Virus record (IMG/VR): IMGVR_UViG_3300028031_000001
Span: 64,001-108,641 of that record
Length of the DNA: 44,641 bases
From: a virus
Direction: 5' to 3' (one strand)
Positions 15,453 to 43,051 of the stretch are shown here, one piece after another (the stretch's first letter is position 1; every line of letters begins with the position of its first letter). The translations under genes were made by a program, and so were the position numbers. Below the pieces are notes generated by a model. The model was not told the origin of the DNA. It worked only from the letters and a program-made list of their open reading frames with translations, and did not search any database.

Positions 15453-15760
15453 GAACCGTAGAGGCGATTGATTTCGTCTGGGTTTTTTCTAAATTCTGTC
15501 GCTTCTACGGATTTACCGATGCTGATGTTTGGGGTATGCCTACGCGCCGATTTTGGGCTATGGAAAACCAAATTCAAAGAATACAGGCTGGCGATGACTT
15601 AAGAATGGTTAACGTTGGTATTGCAGCAGCAAGTGATGAAGCCCGCAAAGAAATTACGGAGCGACTGAGCTTAGAAATCGGTGAACCGTTTAAAATGAAA
15701 CGCGAAAAAATAGTTAAACCAGAAGCTAGTGCCGCAGCACGCATGAACGCGCTGATCTAA
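15120..15760 (+). CDS. Tail assembly chaperone GT (-1 frameshift product)
   Basis: A -1 slip on GGGAAAG at 15443-15449 joins the 110 G codons to a second open frame from 15449 to the TAA at 15758-15760, giving about 213 residues. The T part adds 103 residues: VGTVEAIDFVWVFSKFCRFYGFTD, then WGMPTRRFWAMENQIQRI, and RKEITERLSLEIGEPFKMKR. Upstream of the slip the T frame is closed by TGA at 15437-15439, so only a shift between 15440 and 15449 can work. In lambda, GT recruits the tail tube protein to the tape measure complex, and the G:GT ratio matters. The T frame stop overlaps the tape measure ATG (TAATG). Confidence 0.85.
15443..15510 (+). promoter_or_regulatory. -1 ribosomal frameshift signal with downstream stem
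   Basis: The slippery heptamer GGGAAAG (15443-15449) is in the proper phase (G GGA AAG). Six bases later, CCGTAGAGGCG (15456-15466) pairs with CGCTTCTACGG (15500-15510), an 11-bp stem with one G-U pair and a 33-base loop. Lambda uses the same heptamer; the long stem at ribosome-pausing distance is the typical stimulator of -1 shifts elsewhere. Confidence 0.85.
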
Positions 15761-18700
15761 TGGCATTTTCTGAACTGGTAGTCAGTCTTGATCTCGACGG
15801 TAAAAAATTCAACGCCGGGATTAGGATTGCCAAAAAAGACTTAGATAAGTTTCGAACTTCACTCGCAAAAACTAATGGCCCATTAAGAAGAAGCTCTAAG
15901 AGTGTAAAAACTTGGGGCAGAACATTCCGCGACACCTTTATCGTGCTTGGCCTAGCAAGGGCGGCATTCCAAAACCTAATATCTGTAGTTAATTTACTGC
16001 CCCGCGCCATGCTTGAAGCTAACGCGGAGATAGAGCGTATGCAGGCGTTAATGATGGGGTTGGATACCAGCACCAACGACGCAGCTAAGAGCCTATCCAA
16101 TGCTAACGAAAACATTCAAAAACTATTTACCTTATCAAGTAACTCACCCTTCGCAATTAATGCCGTAACAGATTCTTTCGTAAAGATGAAGGTAGCTGGC
16201 CTTGATCCATTGGCTGGCCCACTGCAAGCGCTGACAGACTCAGTAGCTAAATTCGGAGGTACGACAGAACAATTAAAACGAGCCTCTATAGCCATCCAAC
16301 AGATGGCCGGTAAAGGTGTTATCTCGATGGAAGAATTAAGACAGCAGCTTGGTGAGGCTGTGCCTAACGCGATGGCTACCATGTCAAGAGCTATTGGTAT
16401 AAGAATGGAAGCTTTGGTAGATATAATATCTCAAGGTAACCTTGAGGCTGTCACAGCGCTAAAAGCTATGTTCCAACAAATGGCTATTGAAAATTCCGGA
16501 GCTGCCGAGAAAATGTCTAAGACATGGAACGGCACAATGAATAGGATGCGTAACCAATTTACCTTGCTTATGAAAGCCGTTGGTGATGCCGGTGCGTTCG
16601 AAGCGTTTAAAAAACAACTAGACGAAATAGTCGGTCTAATGTCAGACGATACAATTAGGGAATTCGCCGTTACTCTGGGTGCCGGTATGGCAGACTTAGT
16701 TGTTGGTCTTAGAAAAGTTGTTTCGGTATTAATTGAATTTAATCAGATTATCACCTTAGCATTTAAGGTGTTTCTTGGAACAGCCGTTGCGAACGGTATA
16801 ACCTCCATAATAGGAAGATTGGGTGGATTGTGGGCTGTTACCCAAATTGCAACTCTTAATTTTACAAAATGGACATTTGGAATAGGTGCTGCGAAAACAA
16901 AATTAGTTGCATTACAAGTTCAACTAACGGCTGCAAATATATCAATGGCCGGATACTCATCGGTGACACGACTTGGCATCATAGCTACTAATGCATTTAC
17001 AGTATCTATGAGAGGTCTTGGTATAGCAATGAAATTTGCCTTTGGGCATATTGGCCTTATTGTAGGCGCGGTATTGATAGCTATAGAGGTTTGGGATAAA
17101 TTCGTTGGTGGCCAAAAAAGAGTATTAGATTCGATCAGAGAAACGGATGGGGCTTTAACAGCCCTACAAGAAAAACAACTAACTCAGGGGATTAGAAATC
17201 TTCGGGGTGAAAAAAGGGTGGCTGAACTTAGGTTACGCCAACTAGAATCGTGGGCTGGGGATGAAATAGCAATTAGAACGCGTCTCGCTATAGCGAACGC
17301 TAACGAAGAGGATGGTAAGCGGACAGCAGAAACAAGGGTTTTAAGTCAACTACTAAGCCATCAAAGAGAAATTGCGCGTATAACGACACAAATAGAAGAA
17401 GATAAGAACAGAATTACAAGTTCACAAGAAACAATAGCGAGTGACACAATTAGGGCGGCAGAGCTGGCAGCTCAAAAACAATTCGCCGCTGCAATACTTA
17501 AAAATTCAGAAGACAACGCTAAAAACTTTCTAGAGTTACAAGCTAGAACCCTAACCAATATGGAGTTAGGCAATGTGGCGGCTGCAAGAGAATTTAAAGC
17601 TGGTCAAGAACAAATACTTCAAGAACTGTTTCAGCTTGACTTAAGTTCCGCTAGGAATTTGCTTAAATTGCAAGCGGACACAAATAAATCTCTCAAAGAT
17701 GAAGATTTAAAGGCGGGTCAAGCAAGGCTAACCGCGTTACAAACATTAACGGAAGAGCTGATAGAACGTGGCGCCCTTACTATACAAGAAGCTACAATTT
17801 TTGGAGGAGATGATGGTCAAACAGAAGTTAAGAAGTTAGAGACCTTAGTCGCAAATACAAAAGCAGCTATAGCTGGTATGAAGGCAGAACTTAGAGGCAC
17901 AAACTCTGAAATTGCAAAGTTCATAGCGAAGTTTGATACAAAAGCTTTGGTAGAACAAGAATTGATTACTCAAGAGCTAGCCGATTCTATCCTTAAACTG
18001 AGGGGAGAGTACGGCGATCTAGCAGAGACTCTGAAAGATTTTAAAAAAAATAATACAGAATTTAACTCTATTACTAAAAAGGCTGAGAAGCTAACCGTTG
18101 TGATAGAAGCTCTAAACGCCAAAGCTGAGAATTCCAACAACCCATTTGTTAAAATGGCTGGTGGATTGAAGGCGGCTGAATTTAGAACACAACAATTGAT
18201 AGATAGGTTATTAGAATTACAATCTAACGGCAACCTCAGTGATGACAACCAACTTAAAATTCAAGGTCAGATTGATTCCTTAAGATTGAGTTTGGAAAAA
18301 CTTCCAGACGCTTCTAGAAAAGCCGGTATAGGCGAGATAAGTGAAGAGCTGAAAGATTACCAAGAGACGTTACGCAACACCGCGGCGGCTGCTGAATTCT
18401 CATTCAACAGGCAGAGAGACTTCTTAGATAAATTTGTTAAAGAGTCTGGTGATAAATTCACAGAGCTAGATAGGAAGATGGTTGATGAGTATCGAGCCGC
18501 TTTAGACCACATGGAGCTGTTACAGGGCAACGCCTTAGCATCATTGCTGCACGAATGGGAAACAAAAACTCTAGATATGAATGACGTATGGGCTAAAGGC
18601 ATACAGGGTATGGCGGACGCTTTAACAGAGTTTGTAACGACCGGAAAGTTTAAGTTTAAAGATTTAATTAGATCAATCATAAAAATGATCATACAATCCA

Positions 18701-36026: not shown

Positions 36027-37871
36027 ATGGAAGTACCTATAGCAAGAGTAAAAAAAATTAGAGCAATAAGACACTCTATATCTAATACAGTGCGTATGTT
36101 AGCTGGAAGACAATTGCAAGTTAGGCAAGCTGGTTCTAAAGCTTATGTTAGATTGGATGAAACAGGTGTACCAAATTTAATAAATATACCAGTAATTCCA
36201 GACACGGCTTCGGATAAATTATTAAATGGTGTGCAGGGTTATCTGGATCATGAAATTGGTCATGTATTATTTACAGATATAAATGTTTGGAGGTTAAAAG
36301 CTAAAAAAAGCACCCCACAATTAGAAACCTTTTATTGGAATATACTAGAAGACTCTTTCATTGAGAAACGCATGATTGATCGATTCAAAGGATCGTCTTT
36401 TAATTTAAATAATTCCCGAGAATTAATGATTGACCATATAGATGGAATAATTCCAACAATAAAATCTGACAATGGTAGTGAGAAAGAATGGTGGAATCTT
36501 TTTTGCGTTTGCGCCCTAAGAGCTATGTCTGGCGAAAGTATATTTGTATCGTATATGGAAGACAAATGGCATCTAATACCAAATTCGGTAAAGACTTTAG
36601 AAAAATTTAAGTCGGAACTTCTGACTGTAGAAAGCACTAAGGAAGCTTCTAACTTATCTTTAAGAATAGTAGAAGCTTTATTTGGGAAGCAAAATCCGGA
36701 AGACGAAAAATCTCCAGAGAATAACGCTGAAGGGAAGCCATCTGAAGGGAAGCCATCTGAAGACGAATCATCTGAAGACGAATCATCTGAAGACGAATCA
36801 TCTGAAGGGAAGCCATCTGAAGACGAATCATCTGAAGGATTTAAAGTCAACGAAGATGATTTAGGTAATAACCCATTTACCTTGGAGGACTTTGATTCTG
36901 GTCAGGCTACTACACAGCAGAATTTAATGGAAATTATTATATCGAAAATCGCCGTTGATGAATTTAATAGTACAGATTATATACCATTTACAACATCAAA
37001 TGACATAATAGAGCCGGTTAAAATGCCACAAAATATGGCTGGGGTAGATAGGTCATTCGAAATTATAGATTCAAAATCTAAAGAGATGGTAGGTGTTTTA
37101 CAAAAAGGTCTAGAAAGAGCGTTCCTAGCTATGAGTAAAAAACGCTGGGAATCTGGCCGAACATCAGGGAAACTAAATACTTCCGGACTATCAAGGTTAG
37201 TGGTTGGTGATGATAGGGTATTTCGTCAGCGCGTAATAACAAAAAGTAAAGAAGTCGCCGTTTCTCTTTTGATAGATTGCTCCGGATCGATGTCTGGTAG
37301 GGAGATAAGATTAGCAATTATGGCCGCATGGTCTTTATCAGAAGTGATGGATAGGCTTAATATTAGCAGTGAAGTGATTGGATTTACGACCGAATATTTT
37401 CCATATAATGCGACAGAATCATTGAAAAAAGATAATAGGGACGGAGACTTATATAGCAGATTTAGACCATTATATATGCCAATATTTAAAACTTTTATAG
37501 ATAGGTTCGGAATAGTCCAAAAAAAACGTTTAGCTGTATATCACGCTGGATTGGGCCATATGTCCTGTAATATAGACGGAGAATGCTTAAGGATCGCTGC
37601 GGATAGGTTGATGAATAGGCCAGAATCCGGAAAGACTATCATAGTGTTGTCAGACGGATATCCCGCTGGCGATGGAAATTCTCAAAAATTAAGATCGCAC
37701 TTAAAAAGTACCGCCTTGGATATAGAAAGGGAGGGTATTAACGTTGTTGGGATAGGCATAGGAACCGACGCCCCTGCCAGATTTTATAGGAAGCATGTAA
37801 AGTTAGATAATATAGATGATTTGCCTAGTACAGTTTTGAGTAAATTGAGAGAAGCAATATTACAACCATAA
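36027..37871 (+). CDS. CobT-like VWA protein with zincin motif
   Basis: A 614-residue protein. The N-terminal region holds a zincin-like metal site: H75-E-I-G-H79 in LDHEIGHVLFTD, and E108-D109 in WNILEDSFIEKRM as likely third-ligand region. An acidic, repetitive linker (residues about 220-280; seven EGKPS or EDESS units) leads to a region ending in GLERAFLAMSKKRWESGRTS. A VWA domain has the MIDAS D417-C-S419-G-S421 (LIDCSGSM) and VLSDGYPAGDG. This is the CobT/DUF2201-type layout that pairs with MoxR/CobS AAA+ proteins, and that partner is next. Peptidase activity is predicted from HEIGH but not shown. Confidence 0.8.
   Translation: MEVPIARVKKIRAIRHSISNTVRMLAGRQLQVRQAGSKAYVRLDETGVPNLINIPVIPDTASDKLLNGVQGYLDHEIGHVLFTDINVWRLKAKKSTPQLETFYWNILEDSFIEKRMIDRFKGSSFNLNNSRELMIDHIDGIIPTIKSDNGSEKEWWNLFCVCALRAMSGESIFVSYMEDKWHLIPNSVKTLEKFKSELLTVESTKEASNLSLRIVEALFGKQNPEDEKSPENNAEGKPSEGKPSEDESSEDESSEDESSEGKPSEDESSEGFKVNEDDLGNNPFTLEDFDSGQATTQQNLMEIIISKIAVDEFNSTDYIPFTTSNDIIEPVKMPQNMAGVDRSFEIIDSKSKEMVGVLQKGLERAFLAMSKKRWESGRTSGKLNTSGLSRLVVGDDRVFRQRVITKSKEVAVSLLIDCSGSMSGREIRLAIMAAWSLSEVMDRLNISSEVIGFTTEYFPYNATESLKKDNRDGDLYSRFRPLYMPIFKTFIDRFGIVQKKRLAVYHAGLGHMSCNIDGECLRIAADRLMNRPESGKTIIVLSDGYPAGDGNSQKLRSHLKSTALDIEREGINVVGIGIGTDAPARFYRKHVKLDNIDDLPSTVLSKLREAILQP
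36729..36833 (+). repeat. 15-base tandem repeat in the VWA gene linker
   Basis: Seven perfect 15-base units, of two types: GAAGGGAAGCCATCT (EGKPS; units 1, 2, 6) and GAAGACGAATCATCT (EDESS; units 3, 4, 5, 7). Period and frame are exact. The number of units is likely to vary between isolates. Confidence 0.9.
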
Positions 37872-37884
37872 TTAGGAGATGTAT

Positions 37885-39072
37885 ATGTCAGATAATAAAA
37901 AGATAGTATGTATGATATGTTCAAAAAATGCCCACTCTATAAAAGTCCACATTAAAGAGGATCATTTTGCAGGTTCTAAACAACCTTATACATTTGAGAA
38001 ATATGTAGAAAAATATCCAGAAGCTCCTTTATTGACTTCTGCCGCCGTTGAATATATGAAAAAAATGAGAGCTGAAAGAGTGAAATCTCCGAAACCAACT
38101 ATATTTAAATACAATTTAGACGAAAATAAAAAGCCTATGGCGGAATTGTTTGGATTAAGCGATGCTAATGGGAAAAATATATCTGGAAAAGATATTATGA
38201 TTGGAGTTTCTGACGAAATTAAATTTCCAGAATATGTTCCGCAAATAGATTCTTCATATGTATACCCAGTGACCACGCTAAAAACGGTTTTAATGGCGTT
38301 AAGTCAAAATATTCCCGTATATATATATGGCCATGCAGGTGTGGGAAAAACATCTTTATTTGAACAAATTTGTGCTAGAACTAACAACCGTATGATACGA
38401 ATACAACATACAGCCAATATAGAAGAGTCGCATATTATCGGCCAATGGACTGTGGAAAAATTTAAGGACGAAGAAAGCGGCCAGCTAATATCTGAAACAG
38501 TTTTTAAACTCGGCCCCCTAGCCGTAGCTATGAAGTATGGATTTTACTATTTGGCAGATGAATTTGATCGCGGACATCCGACGGTTATGTCAATTTATAA
38601 TGCGGTGCTGGAAGGTAAGCCTTTAATAATTCCCGAGGCTGATGAAGATAATAGGGTTATAACACCTCATAAAAATTTTAGGTTCGTGGCAAATGGAAAT
38701 AGCAACGGCTCTGGGGATGAGACCGGCCTTTACCAAGCCACTATCATGCAAGACGCCGCCAGCATAGAAAGGTTTGGAGTGTGCTTGAAACTGAATTATA
38801 TGAGTCCAGCCAAAGAGCTGAAAATGATTATAGACAAGACTGGGTTGCCATCCGAAGACGCGGAAAGGGTTGTCAGTTTTTGCACTAAAATTAGAGAGTC
38901 TTACCCATCTTCAGTATCTTTAACTATTGGCCCTAGAGTAGCAATTACTGCCGCCGTAATTGGGCTATTAAGTGGAAATATAAAACGTGGTATAGAATGC
39001 GCCTACGCTAATAGATTACCAGAATCTGAAAGGGAGTCTGCGCTAGCAATATCTCAAAGGATTTTTGGATAA
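37885..39072 (+). CDS. CobS/MoxR-like AAA+ ATPase with zinc finger
   Basis: A 395-residue AAA+ protein. Start at ATG 37885, six bases after GGAG; the ATG at 37879 touches the ribosome site. Residues 9-27 are a C-x2-C-x9-H-x4-H zinc finger (CMICSK...KVHIKEDH). The ATPase core has Walker A YGHAGVGKTSLF, a Walker B-like YLADEFDRGHP, and the sensor region FRFVANGNSNGSGDETGLYQ, as in CobS and MoxR. The partner VWA protein is the previous gene. Such pairs remodel or insert metal into client proteins in other systems. Here they may work on a phage or host protein; client unknown. Confidence 0.8.
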   Translation: MSDNKKIVCMICSKNAHSIKVHIKEDHFAGSKQPYTFEKYVEKYPEAPLLTSAAVEYMKKMRAERVKSPKPTIFKYNLDENKKPMAELFGLSDANGKNISGKDIMIGVSDEIKFPEYVPQIDSSYVYPVTTLKTVLMALSQNIPVYIYGHAGVGKTSLFEQICARTNNRMIRIQHTANIEESHIIGQWTVEKFKDEESGQLISETVFKLGPLAVAMKYGFYYLADEFDRGHPTVMSIYNAVLEGKPLIIPEADEDNRVITPHKNFRFVANGNSNGSGDETGLYQATIMQDAASIERFGVCLKLNYMSPAKELKMIIDKTGLPSEDAERVVSFCTKIRESYPSSVSLTIGPRVAITAAVIGLLSGNIKRGIECAYANRLPESERESALAISQRIFG

Positions 39073-39640: not shown

Positions 39641-42600
39641 ATGACGTGTATGATAGGAGCGAAAACAGATTTCTCTCTAAAAGAGAGTGTGCTGAGTGCT
39701 AAGTATTTAGTAAATAAAGCTAAAGAGCTTGGGTACGATGCTATAGCTATCGCCGACACATCCTCTATCAACGCACTGACAAAGATATTCGCTGAAGCAA
39801 AGAAGGCTGACATAAAAGCGATCATCGGTGTTACGTTCACAGTCACTGACGACATCCATTACCGCGATGCAAAGCGTGGCACCCCCAAGACTAAGAAGCC
39901 TAGATTCCACAGACCAGTTCTGTACGCAAGAGATCAACACGGCCTAAGCGTGATAATGAATCTTGTAACTCTATCCAATGATGCGAATCACTTCTATTAT
40001 AACACGCAGATAAATCTAGAAGAACTACTATCCGCCATCAAAGAGGGTGGAGTTGTGTATTCGACTGGCGAAGCTTACTCGACGTTTACACATCCAGAAT
40101 ATATAGAAATTTTGCATTTGGTGGATTCTGCCTGTATAACATCTACACTCCAGTCTGCCACACCAAACGAATCTTTAATGTTCGGAGCGGTAGTCCCTGT
40201 AGATACCCCATACTACGATATGATTACACAGCGAGCAATATCTTGGATAAAATTTGACGCAACCCGTAATTTAATTATTTCAAAGCCGGTACTTCACAAG
40301 AAAGGTAAGGCCGATGTCCGTAATACTATGGACTGTATTCTTAACCGCAACAAGGTTGACAGTCCGTGGCGCAATGAGCCAGCGGAATTTCATCCAGAAC
40401 AACCTGCTATAATCGTGATGATGGTAGGGTTCCAACAAGCCAGAATTTCAGCCAACAGCACAGGCGATTTATCCGATATATTATTCGATGGTATTAAAGT
40501 TTTCGAAGATTCGTTCACATACGAATTCAAGAAGATGCCTATCTCCCTACCTGAGATATCCACTACGCCAAAAGAAACTCTGCTGAAGTTGTCTATCGAA
40601 GGATGGAAGAATCGAATTGCTAAAACTGTGTTGGGCTACAAGCCGGACGCATCCGAATTGCCGAAGTACAAAGAGCGCCTGAAGTACGAACTAAAAACCC
40701 TAAACGACATGGGCTTTGAGAATTACTTCCTGTTGGTTGAGAAGCTGACTACATGGTGTGCCGAAGAAGGAATTTTTGTTGGCCCCGGACGAGGCTCTGT
40801 CGGTGGTTCACTAGTAGCCTACCTGCTTGGAATAACAGACGTCGACCCTATCCGCTTTGGATTGATATTCGAGCGATTCATTAACCCCTCACGATTGGAC
40901 TTGCCAGATATCGATTTGGATTTCATGTCCTCTCGCCGTCATGAAGTGGTCACTTATTTAAGGGATCAATTTGGAGAGGATAACGTGGCTGGTATATCTA
41001 ACTACGGAGTTATGGGGCCATCATCTTCACTGAGAGCTGTGGGTTCTGCTCACAACTTAACGCAGGACGAAATCTCCTGCTCCAAGATGGTTCCGAAAGA
41101 GCATGGCATACCAATGAAGTTGGAAGCTTGCGTGGCAGAGGTTCCAGAGCTGGAGAGATTCGCAATTGACCATCCAAGCATCTGGGAAGAGGCTGTCGAG
41201 TTGCAGGGAGTGTTCAAAAATTACGGCACGCACGCCGCAGGTATAGTTGTGTCTGGAGTACCAATCAAAGAGAGAGCGGTTGTAGAGAGACGCAAAGATA
41301 AAGTCTGGTCTATCAATTGGGACAAGCGTGTGGTGGAAGACTTCGGTCTAGTTAAGTTGGACGTACTAGGTCTACAGACTCTGGACATCCTAGCAAAAGC
41401 TAATGAATATCTAATTGATGACGGCAAAGAGTCAATCAATTATAAATCTATAGAACTGACAGATGGAAAGGTGTTAGCTGGATTTGCCAAGGCCGAAACT
41501 AAAGGTGTATTTCAGTTTGAAGGTGGTGGTATGAGACACCTTCTTAAGGAACTGGCTGACGGTGACAAAATATCTTTCGAGGATATTACAGCAGCAACGG
41601 CACTGTTTCGTCCCGGCCCAATCGATGCTGGATTGATGGATGACTACGTACAGATTAAGCAGGGTGCTTCGTATCCTAACTACCTGCATCCAGCTATGGA
41701 ACCAGCACTGAAAGAAACTCAATCGGTGATTGTGTATCAGGAACAAGTGATGCAGATCGCTCGTGACTTGGCCGGATTCTCATTCGCGGAAGCTGACGTA
41801 CTTAGAAAAGCTATGGGCAAGAAAGACCATGACTTAATGGCACAGCAACGTAGCAAGTGGGTTGATGGATGCTTAACAACTCATAACATGGATATTATAA
41901 CTTCAGGTGGTCTGTTCGATCAGGTTGAGAAGTTTGCTGGCTACGGCTTTAACAAGTCTCACTCAGTCGAGTACACAATTATATCGTACTGGTCTATGTA
42001 CGTGAAAACGTATCACCCTGCCGTATTTTACGCGGCGGCGTTGTCAGTCTTGGACGAACCGAAGCTGATGGGTCTGGTGAAAGAGGCAGAGACTAAAGAT
42101 ATATTCGTTCGATCACCCGATATAAATAAGTCTTCAGACCGATATGAGGTTGTTAAAGAATTGGATGGTGGTATATCTTTGTACGCTCCATTCCAAGCTG
42201 TGAAAGGAATCAGTGAAAAAGGTGCGGCGGCGATCTTGGAAGCACAGTTGAACACTGGGGCGGGCATGGGTTTGTTCACAAGCAAGGCCAACTTCCTAGC
42301 CAGAGTAAACAAAAGATTCGCAAATATCAGAGTACAGTCTGCACTGGATAAGATTGGGGCGTTTGCTTCAATAGAATCTGACCAGCTACCAGCCTCTGAC
42401 ATCAGCAGGTTGAGAGATCAAAAGGAACTATTACCGGGGATTGTTACTAGAAATGTTATGACAGACCGGTCTATAATGAAGGATAAGGAATCTCTAGCGT
42501 CCCTACGTGAGGTTTTGCAAGAAGTTCAGGGCTGTTCTGCCTGTAGTTTGCAGGGAGAATGCCACCCCAAGCCAAAAATGGGTAAGACTGCGAAGATAAT

Positions 42601-43051
42601 GATCGTCACGGACTGCCCCAACTGGGGTGAAGAGAAGATGATGGGCACTGGAGAGGGCTGTACAGCCTTACGAGAGGCTTTAAAGGTTGCAGACATACCG
42701 ATGGCAGACGTATACCTAACATCGCTTGTGAAGGCTCTCAAGGGCTCTGGACAGACGCTACAGAACGAGTCAATCATAGGTTGTTCTGGGTTTCTAGATC
42801 GAGAGATAGAGATATTGAAGCCGCCAGTGATTGTTGTGCTGGGATCGGCAGCATTCAGGCACCTATACCCAGAAGCCAAAGGTGGGTGGGAAGAATTAAA
42901 TGGGCAGGTTCAGTATATTTCAGAGACAGATATGACATTGGTATGCGGATTGAATCCTTTGATGGTTCACTTTGATAAAACCAAGCAGATACACTTAAAC
43001 GACGCACTAATTACAGCGAAGAGTTTATTTAAGCTACCTACCAACCTCTAA
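39641..43051 (+). CDS. DNA polymerase III alpha fused to a UDG-like domain
   Basis: A 1136-residue C-family polymerase. The N-terminal PHP domain is degenerate (AKTDFSLKESVLSAKYL; IADTSSINAL has D-T where active PHP domains have D-H). The palm has GPGRGSVGGSLVAYLLG (about 381), PDIDLDFM (about 421) and KLDVLGLQTL (about 573), giving the three catalytic Asp. Later parts are FRPGPIDAGLMDDY and GFNKSHSVEYTIISYW. Residues about 955-1136 are a UDG family 4/5-type domain (QGCSACSLQGEC, TDCPNWGEEKMMGTGEG, EILKPPVIVVLGSAAFRHLY, LNPLMVHFD). The enzyme copies the phage DNA; the fused domain may recognise uracil, but its active-site motif is altered. Confidence 0.85.
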   Translation: MTCMIGAKTDFSLKESVLSAKYLVNKAKELGYDAIAIADTSSINALTKIFAEAKKADIKAIIGVTFTVTDDIHYRDAKRGTPKTKKPRFHRPVLYARDQHGLSVIMNLVTLSNDANHFYYNTQINLEELLSAIKEGGVVYSTGEAYSTFTHPEYIEILHLVDSACITSTLQSATPNESLMFGAVVPVDTPYYDMITQRAISWIKFDATRNLIISKPVLHKKGKADVRNTMDCILNRNKVDSPWRNEPAEFHPEQPAIIVMMVGFQQARISANSTGDLSDILFDGIKVFEDSFTYEFKKMPISLPEISTTPKETLLKLSIEGWKNRIAKTVLGYKPDASELPKYKERLKYELKTLNDMGFENYFLLVEKLTTWCAEEGIFVGPGRGSVGGSLVAYLLGITDVDPIRFGLIFERFINPSRLDLPDIDLDFMSSRRHEVVTYLRDQFGEDNVAGISNYGVMGPSSSLRAVGSAHNLTQDEISCSKMVPKEHGIPMKLEACVAEVPELERFAIDHPSIWEEAVELQGVFKNYGTHAAGIVVSGVPIKERAVVERRKDKVWSINWDKRVVEDFGLVKLDVLGLQTLDILAKANEYLIDDGKESINYKSIELTDGKVLAGFAKAETKGVFQFEGGGMRHLLKELADGDKISFEDITAATALFRPGPIDAGLMDDYVQIKQGASYPNYLHPAMEPALKETQSVIVYQEQVMQIARDLAGFSFAEADVLRKAMGKKDHDLMAQQRSKWVDGCLTTHNMDIITSGGLFDQVEKFAGYGFNKSHSVEYTIISYWSMYVKTYHPAVFYAAALSVLDEPKLMGLVKEAETKDIFVRSPDINKSSDRYEVVKELDGGISLYAPFQAVKGISEKGAAAILEAQLNTGAGMGLFTSKANFLARVNKRFANIRVQSALDKIGAFASIESDQLPASDISRLRDQKELLPGIVTRNVMTDRSIMKDKESLASLREVLQEVQGCSACSLQGECHPKPKMGKTAKIMIVTDCPNWGEEKMMGTGEGCTALREALKVADIPMADVYLTSLVKALKGSGQTLQNESIIGCSGFLDREIEILKPPVIVVLGSAAFRHLYPEAKGGWEELNGQVQYISETDMTLVCGLNPLMVHFDKTKQIHLNDALITAKSLFKLPTNL

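Follow-up and report, generated by a model that had tools for sequence, protein, structure and literature searches.

The window analysed here is a stretch of 44,641 nucleotides (positions 64,001 to 108,641 of IMG/VR virus record IMGVR_UViG_3300028031_000001, a virus contig of 108,641 bases), and it carries at 39641-43051, on the plus strand, an open reading frame (ORF) with an ATG start that encodes 1136 amino acids. The product is a DNA polymerase III alpha subunit of the DnaE type with a C-terminal domain resembling uracil-DNA glycosylases (UDGs), as supported by a match of the full-length phage DNA polymerase family PHROG_405 to residues 7-1128 (phrog_405, E 4.7e-263) and by an AlphaFold2 model of the whole protein (pLDDT 88.5, pTM 0.82). 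Pfam domains follow one another in the DnaE order, namely PHP, DNA_pol3_alpha, DNA_pol3_finger and HHH_6, and then comes UDG (PF03167). All features described below lie on the plus strand and are given in window coordinates. The palm, thumb and fingers of the polymerase core (residues 296-790; 40526..42010) match DnaE structurally and contain an intact PDIDLDF motif (422-428), whose aspartates 423, 425 and 427 are, together with D574, invariant in 53 rows of the alignment, so that the catalytic triad of the C-family is present. The PHP domain (residues 1-295; 39641..40525), identified by Pfam, has lost its metal-binding H-x-H, with KTDFS replacing HxHxxxS, and column counts in 53 relatives show that the loss extends throughout the clade of the window. 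Alongside this loss, a separate DnaQ-like exonuclease gene lies at 15620-16108 of the full record.

The helix-hairpin-helix (HhH) region (residues 791-916; 42011..42388; Pfam HHH_6 at 821-914) is where the resemblance to cellular polymerases stops: the alignment with E. coli DnaE (5fkw) ends here and the NCBIfam DnaE models end near residue 914. Beyond residue 947, the OB fold and tau-binding C-terminal domain (CTD) of a typical DnaE1 are missing and the UDG-like domain is found instead (residues 948-1135; 42482..43045). Since residues 1-916 of the full-length model align with E. coli DnaE and residues 948-1135 with UDGs, this domain occupies the place of the OB and tau-binding domains of the cellular enzyme. 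The resulting order, PHP-Pol3-(HhH)2 followed by PF03167 without OB and CTD, is that of DnaE-UDG, the DnaEX variant of Timinskas et al. 2013, and of PHROG_405. That report described, in certain strains of Yersinia pestis and Salmonella enterica, an additional polymerase in which a UDG domain replaces the OB and CTD; as read here, it offers neither phage context nor a motif analysis nor a function of the domain (PMC3919608). An assembly error as the source of the fusion is ruled out by the identical architecture in isolated sequenced phages and in all 46 complete loci described below.

The identity of the C-terminal domain as a member of the UDG superfamily is far beyond chance. Pfam UDG scored 34.2 bits on residues 984-1084 against a cut-off of 24.3 (E=3e-8), and the C-terminal 198 residues matched family-4 UDGs in PDB by sequence alone (4zbx, 3.6e-10; 1ui0, 4.4e-9). 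A profile built from 73 sequences reached family-4 UDGs in PDB at 1.3e-21, and PF03167 was scored by all 73 aligned relatives. An AlphaFold2 model of the isolated domain, with the 73 window and contig sequences as input, yielded pLDDT 89.1, and its best Foldseek matches in PDB were family-4 UDGs and UdgX (4zby, 1.2e-12). Superposition by VIA-align on the T. maritima UDG 1vk2 gave Z 23.6 and a root-mean-square deviation of 2.3 A over 184 residues; across classes, Z was 21-24 for family 4 and UdgX, 18.5 for family 5 (2d3y) and 13-14 for TDG/MUG. The modelled alpha/beta fold is thus nearest to family 4, and on this model the domain is of the family 4 type, not family 5. A preliminary description made from the DNA letters had proposed a family 4/5 UDG fused to a replicative C-family polymerase; the fusion and the superfamily are borne out by Pfam, the PDB matches and the model, and of the two families named only family 4 stands. 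The curated NCBIfam cut-offs for family 4 are not reached (Arch_udg NF040953, 45.4 bits against 250; TIGR00758, 38.8 against 125.3). The hallmarks of UdgX are likewise absent: there is no GEQPG motif, and the KRRIH R-loop with its nucleophilic His is missing, with a short ALKGSGQ loop in its place.

The fold has been kept and the chemistry appears to have been lost. Enzymes of family 4 and UdgX hold uracil with the Asn of a TN motif and the motif-B His, their motif A reads GE(A/G)PG or GEQPG, and H109 of UdgX takes the role of N89 in the T. thermophilus enzyme (PMC10359453). The 73 family sequences were collected through motifs in the linker preceding the domain, so that the pocket itself was not selected for. 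Motif A has become T-D-C-P-N (990-994; 42608..42622), just as the preliminary description read it, and its Glu is Asp in 73 of 73, with D991 and P993 both invariant; it departs from the family-4 GE(A/G)PG. Within T1027-S1028-L-V-K1031-A-L-K1034 (42719..42742), the uracil-binding Asn is replaced by Ser, the third Cys by Ala, and a new invariant Lys has appeared. The Asn of TN occurs in none of the 73 sequences, which have Ala, Ser, Thr or Gly instead, and none of them has the catalytic Asn in the CRPPxNR loop either (0/73). Motif B, HPS or HPA in family 4, reads N1105-P-L (42953..42961), and its His is lost in 72 of 73 (N in 48, S in 21, H in 1). The His of MVHFD (H1110), proposed earlier as the His segment of the enzyme, is not the motif-B His, which lies five residues before it at N1105-P1106-L1107 and has become Asn; the VIVVLGSAAF string proposed with it is present at 1063-1072. 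The stacking Phe of family 4 is likewise replaced. The residues invariant in all 73 are D991, P993, Y1025, T1027, K1031, K1034, E1055 and G1068, with K1034 sitting at a family-4 Pro position. Family-4 enzymes such as T. maritima TM0511, S. tokodaii 4zbx and T. thermophilus 1ui0 share with the domain the fold, the order of secondary structure, two N-terminal Cys, Cys4 and the scaffold residues P993, Y1025, T1027, K1031 and P1106; the domain of the window departs from them at the Glu of motif A, the Asn of TN and that of the catalytic loop, the stacking Phe, the third Cys and the His of motif B, each of which is replaced, and it is covalently joined to a polymerase. Judged by these residues, uracil excision by the domain is very unlikely, and it is probably a pseudo-glycosylase, a non-cutting accessory part of the polymerase. 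The suggestion that it might bind rather than cut fits the disappearance of every catalytic signature, and the idea that it senses or repairs uracil fares poorly, as precisely the residues making hydrogen bonds to uracil in UdgX and other UDGs (TN Asn and motif-B His) have been lost (PMC10359453).

A second remodelled feature is a putative metal site. Family-4 UDGs bind a [4Fe-4S] cluster through four Cys. The C-x2-C noticed earlier is present as C965 and C968 (42533..42544), corresponding to family-4 Cys1 and Cys2 and putatively the first two ligands, and C1048 (42782..42784) corresponds to Cys4. The third Cys is replaced in all 73 sequences, and H975 (42563..42565), which accompanies the Cys set in 28 of 28 cases, is the putative fourth ligand. 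Of the cysteine set that the preliminary description proposed to examine for Fe-S binding, the first two cysteines and Cys4 survive in the window, with Cys-Cys-His-Cys in place of four Cys. This combination is complete in 28 of the 73 sequences and incomplete in every other; among the 45 without C-x2-C, His975 is found in three and Cys1048 in one. Such an all-or-none pattern suggests a metal site that was lost as one unit in the other relatives, and in part of the clade it would be a stabilising site derived from the [4Fe-4S] site.

The fusion occurs in several groups of phages and in every complete close relative. INPHARED contained 30 records matching at least 80% of the protein, including Nickievirus, Rhizobium RHEph10 types, Stenotrophomonas ANB28 types and SSU5-type enterobacterial phages, and a search of IMG/VR viral contigs with the C-terminus alignment detected 143 loci; scanning viral contigs with the single, whole polymerase sequence gave no relative. 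Bacterial genomes yielded four contigs with this polymerase, two of which, at 112-118 kb, have the size of whole phages. These two, from Magnetospirillum molischianum (L186, 112,764 bases) and Phyllobacterium myrsinacearum (L187, 118,187 bases), are likely phage-plasmids by their phage-like size and polymerase. Whether the domain is optional was tested by searching with the polymerase core alone and scoring complete loci, those with at least 46% core identity being counted as close: the domain was present in 46 of 46. Among 30 more distant DnaE loci, seven carried a C-terminal UDG of the ordinary family-4 type and none was detected in 23. Mean identity is higher in the UDG-like domain (40%) than in the PHP domain (34%), and the DnaE clade of the window forms one group in the tree (100/100). 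The DnaE proteins of Nickievirus (Pseudomonas phages nickie and hairong) and RHEph10 are full-length homologues with 47% and 42% identity, sharing the gene order of the window and differing only by sequence divergence; the RHEph10 record is already annotated as uracil-DNA glycosylase-like and lacks the Cys set. The SSU5 polymerase, of the Timinskas DnaE-UDG kind, has the same PHP-Pol3-(HhH)2-UDG order and aligns over 97% of the protein at 36% identity; SSU5-type domains have lost all metal ligands, whereas the window keeps Cys-Cys-His-Cys.

In several relatives the polymerase gene is split near residue 745 (L012 3749-4510, L025 4878-5578, L035 ~5507, L059 327-1065, L084 480-1255), in most of them with an HNH-like homing endonuclease ORF apparently between the halves. 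The halves each bear a short conserved tail (about 50 amino acids on the N-terminal half), and a tail of similar kind occurs in SSU5 as an in-frame insertion. This arrangement is reminiscent of nrdA in phage Aeh1, a 'gene in pieces'.

Comparison with other polymerase-UDG fusions places the loss of catalytic residues in a wider frame. The seven distant DnaE fusions (L155, L239, L245, L250, L254, L256 and L257) are 1133-1340 amino acids from stop to stop, several of them keeping the PHP H-x-H at the N-terminus, and they retain nearly all catalytic residues and the four Cys, which rules out that DnaE-fused UDG domains are always inactive. A joint origin of the inactive and the intact DnaE fusions was neither shown nor rejected (approximately unbiased test, p = 0.43). 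UDG-fold fusions are also known from family-A phage polymerases (SPO1 gp31, PaBG gp205, PMBT14 and phiLo 9qhs), there at the N-terminus of an unrelated polymerase family, and a UDG domain in the DNA polymerase I of PaBG has been described (PMC7412058). Of the 60 family-A polymerases sampled, 52 have all of Glu, Asn and His, a fraction biased towards intact motifs because the intact-type sample was fetched with patterns containing motif A or TN; many phage family-A polymerases of about 800-890 amino acids (L104-L129 and others, L093, L098, L099 and L101) have at their N-terminus a family-4 UDG that looks intact. Among the family-A fusions, SPO1, vB_EalM-132, LysYB1 and the PMBT14/Serbin/P744 type are degenerate; the pocket of the SPO1, LysYB1 and PMBT14 types is degenerate as in the window, and the PMBT14 type has the same D-x-P-N and Lys. 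Some of these fusions (PMBT14, Serbin, P744 and KimJongPhill) adjoin deaminase or thymidylate synthase genes. In the tree, the PMBT14 type adjoins the intact ctfzr933 (98/91) and yet has D-x-P-N and Lys like the DnaE clade, so that on sequence grounds the two appear to have been inactivated separately with similar changes. Because catalytic residues are largely or wholly preserved in most sampled family-A fusions and in the seven distant DnaE fusions, inactivation, as read from sequence, occurred more than once. A broader view, which we hold tentatively and with more doubt than belief, is that UDG folds on family-A and family-C phage polymerases have been repeatedly inactivated and have converged on a remade pocket with D-x-P-N and a new Lys, so that phages would repeatedly employ the pseudo-glycosylase in their replisomes, much as poxviruses employ D4; part of one lineage would have gained a new Cys-Cys-His-Cys metal site.

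The linker from the HhH region to the UDG-like domain contains the conserved sequence RDQxELLPG, and within it lies QKELL (residues 927-931; 42419..42433), a putative sliding-clamp binding pentapeptide in the same place as in DnaE. Clamp-binding motifs follow the consensus QL[SD]LF, in which positions 1, 4 and 5 weigh most (PMC3919608); Q927, L930 and L931 fit it and are conserved in 70/73, 71/73 and, as L/M/I931, 73/73 sequences. A beta clamp remained below the Pfam threshold in the full record. Since none was detected there, the phage may rely on the sliding clamp of its host. The polymerase gene is preceded by genes for a CobT-like VWA and a CobS-like AAA protein and by a small gene, and is followed by a gp32-like single-strand binding protein. 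The CobT/CobS-like pair lies directly upstream at 36027-39072 and is likewise found before the polymerase of hairong, of RHEph10 and of SSU5; it may act in replication or remodelling rather than in cobalamin synthesis. A Pfam search of the record found a thymidylate synthase gene elsewhere and neither dUTPase nor dCMP deaminase at threshold.

What such a domain might do can be weighed against these observations. The reading we lean towards, with a confidence just short of even, is that a dead family-4 UDG fold serves as a fixed, non-enzymatic C-terminal DnaE module in a phage and phage-plasmid lineage of about 100-120 kb. Replacing the OB fold and tau-binding domain of cellular DnaE, it would keep the polymerase attached at the fork, chiefly by docking a partner protein or by bracing the polymerase itself, without reading or removing uracil, and what used to be the uracil pocket may be sealed by the new residues Asp991 and Lys1034. 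A possible but less favoured explanation is that the dead fold grips single-stranded template ahead of the active site, substituting for the OB fold and conferring processivity in the manner of poxvirus D4/E4. The domain does occupy the OB position (PMC3919608), family-4 UDG and UdgX folds bind single-stranded DNA (6iod and 6l6s are among the top structural matches), the invariant K1031 and K1034 adjoin the former DNA-binding pocket in sequence, and no phage sliding clamp was found in the genome by Pfam. The poxvirus precedent is that the UDG is a subunit of the polymerase holoenzyme, with catalysis dispensable for its processivity role in some studies and the need for activity disputed (PMC10115419, PMC10253040). 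D4/E4 with A20/A22 thus shows a UDG fold serving a replicative polymerase in a reported role beyond base excision; it differs from the domain of the window in belonging to another UDG family, being a separate subunit and still being an active enzyme. Template gripping is opposed by the degraded DNA-intercalating motif B, by the conserved clamp-like QxELL, which suggests that a (host) clamp gives processivity, and by charge: the mean net charge of the domain is -4.1 in the clade of the window, unlike most active relatives (standalone +2.5, family-A fused +3.8, intact DnaE-fused +11.7). It is this negative charge, more in keeping with protein contacts than with non-specific tracking along DNA, that makes us prefer docking or scaffolding over template binding, without strong conviction. 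Several points weigh against the docking or bracing role: no partner protein is known or has been identified; net charge is a crude measure that would hide a positive patch on a negative domain, and the intact DnaE fusion L155 is also net negative (-3); the conserved Lys/Arg at 1031, 1034, 1073, 1080 and 1115 could face DNA; the convergence of some family-A fusions on D-x-P-N and Lys at 1034 could point to a common ligand rather than to a sealed pocket; and the inactivity of the domain is itself read from its residues.

The remaining explanations are further from the evidence. The domain might descend from an active UDG fusion and survive as a passive relic or structural cap that does no more than stabilise the C-terminus of the polymerase. 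This would agree with the absence of the metal site in 45/73 and with the intact DnaE-UDG fusions of more distant phages; we consider it improbable, given no loss in 46 complete relatives, conservation above that of the PHP domain and the new invariant residues D991 and K1034. Even less probable is a sensing role, in which the domain would bind template uracil or a modified template base, leave it uncut, and stall or steer the polymerase. Its appeal comes from phiLo, whose UDG-bearing family-A polymerase was solved with a modified template (9qhs; a profile match by sequence at E 0.4 was weak and only a lead, and the later fold comparison gave Z 14.5), and from the degenerate family-A fusions, several of which adjoin thymidylate synthase and dCMP deaminase genes and one of which is that of SPO1, a phage whose DNA carries hydroxymethyluracil. 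Nevertheless, the domain has lost the Asn and His that bind uracil as well as the stacking Phe, and the genome, with thymidylate synthase and without dCMP deaminase or dUTPase by Pfam, gives no sign of deoxyuridine biology. We give the least credence of all to an active glycosylase of changed chemistry that removes uracil or another base during replication: the fold and the invariant polar pocket residues D991, T1027, K1031 and K1034 could accommodate one, but the residues with a demonstrated part in uracil binding or activation in family 4 and UdgX have all been replaced (PMC10359453), and an active glycosylase on replicating template would make abasic blocks.

The DnaE-UDG fusion architecture is already known, from the 2013 report and the RHEph10 annotation. 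The preliminary description had allowed that the arrangement might prove to be a described phage polymerase architecture with a known other role; the architecture has indeed been reported (Timinskas et al. 2013, PMC3919608), with no other role described for it. New, in that we did not find them in the literature searched, are the uniform loss of catalytic residues, the Cys-Cys-His-Cys set, the universality of the domain in this phage lineage and the family-A parallel. Such genes should not be annotated as uracil repair. A repair fold without its chemistry that is kept by every close relative points to a replication job independent of uracil, and the replacement of two cellular DnaE domains offers a natural test of what the OB and tau-binding domains do, one that SSU5-type enterobacterial phages, which carry the domain, make testable in laboratory strains.

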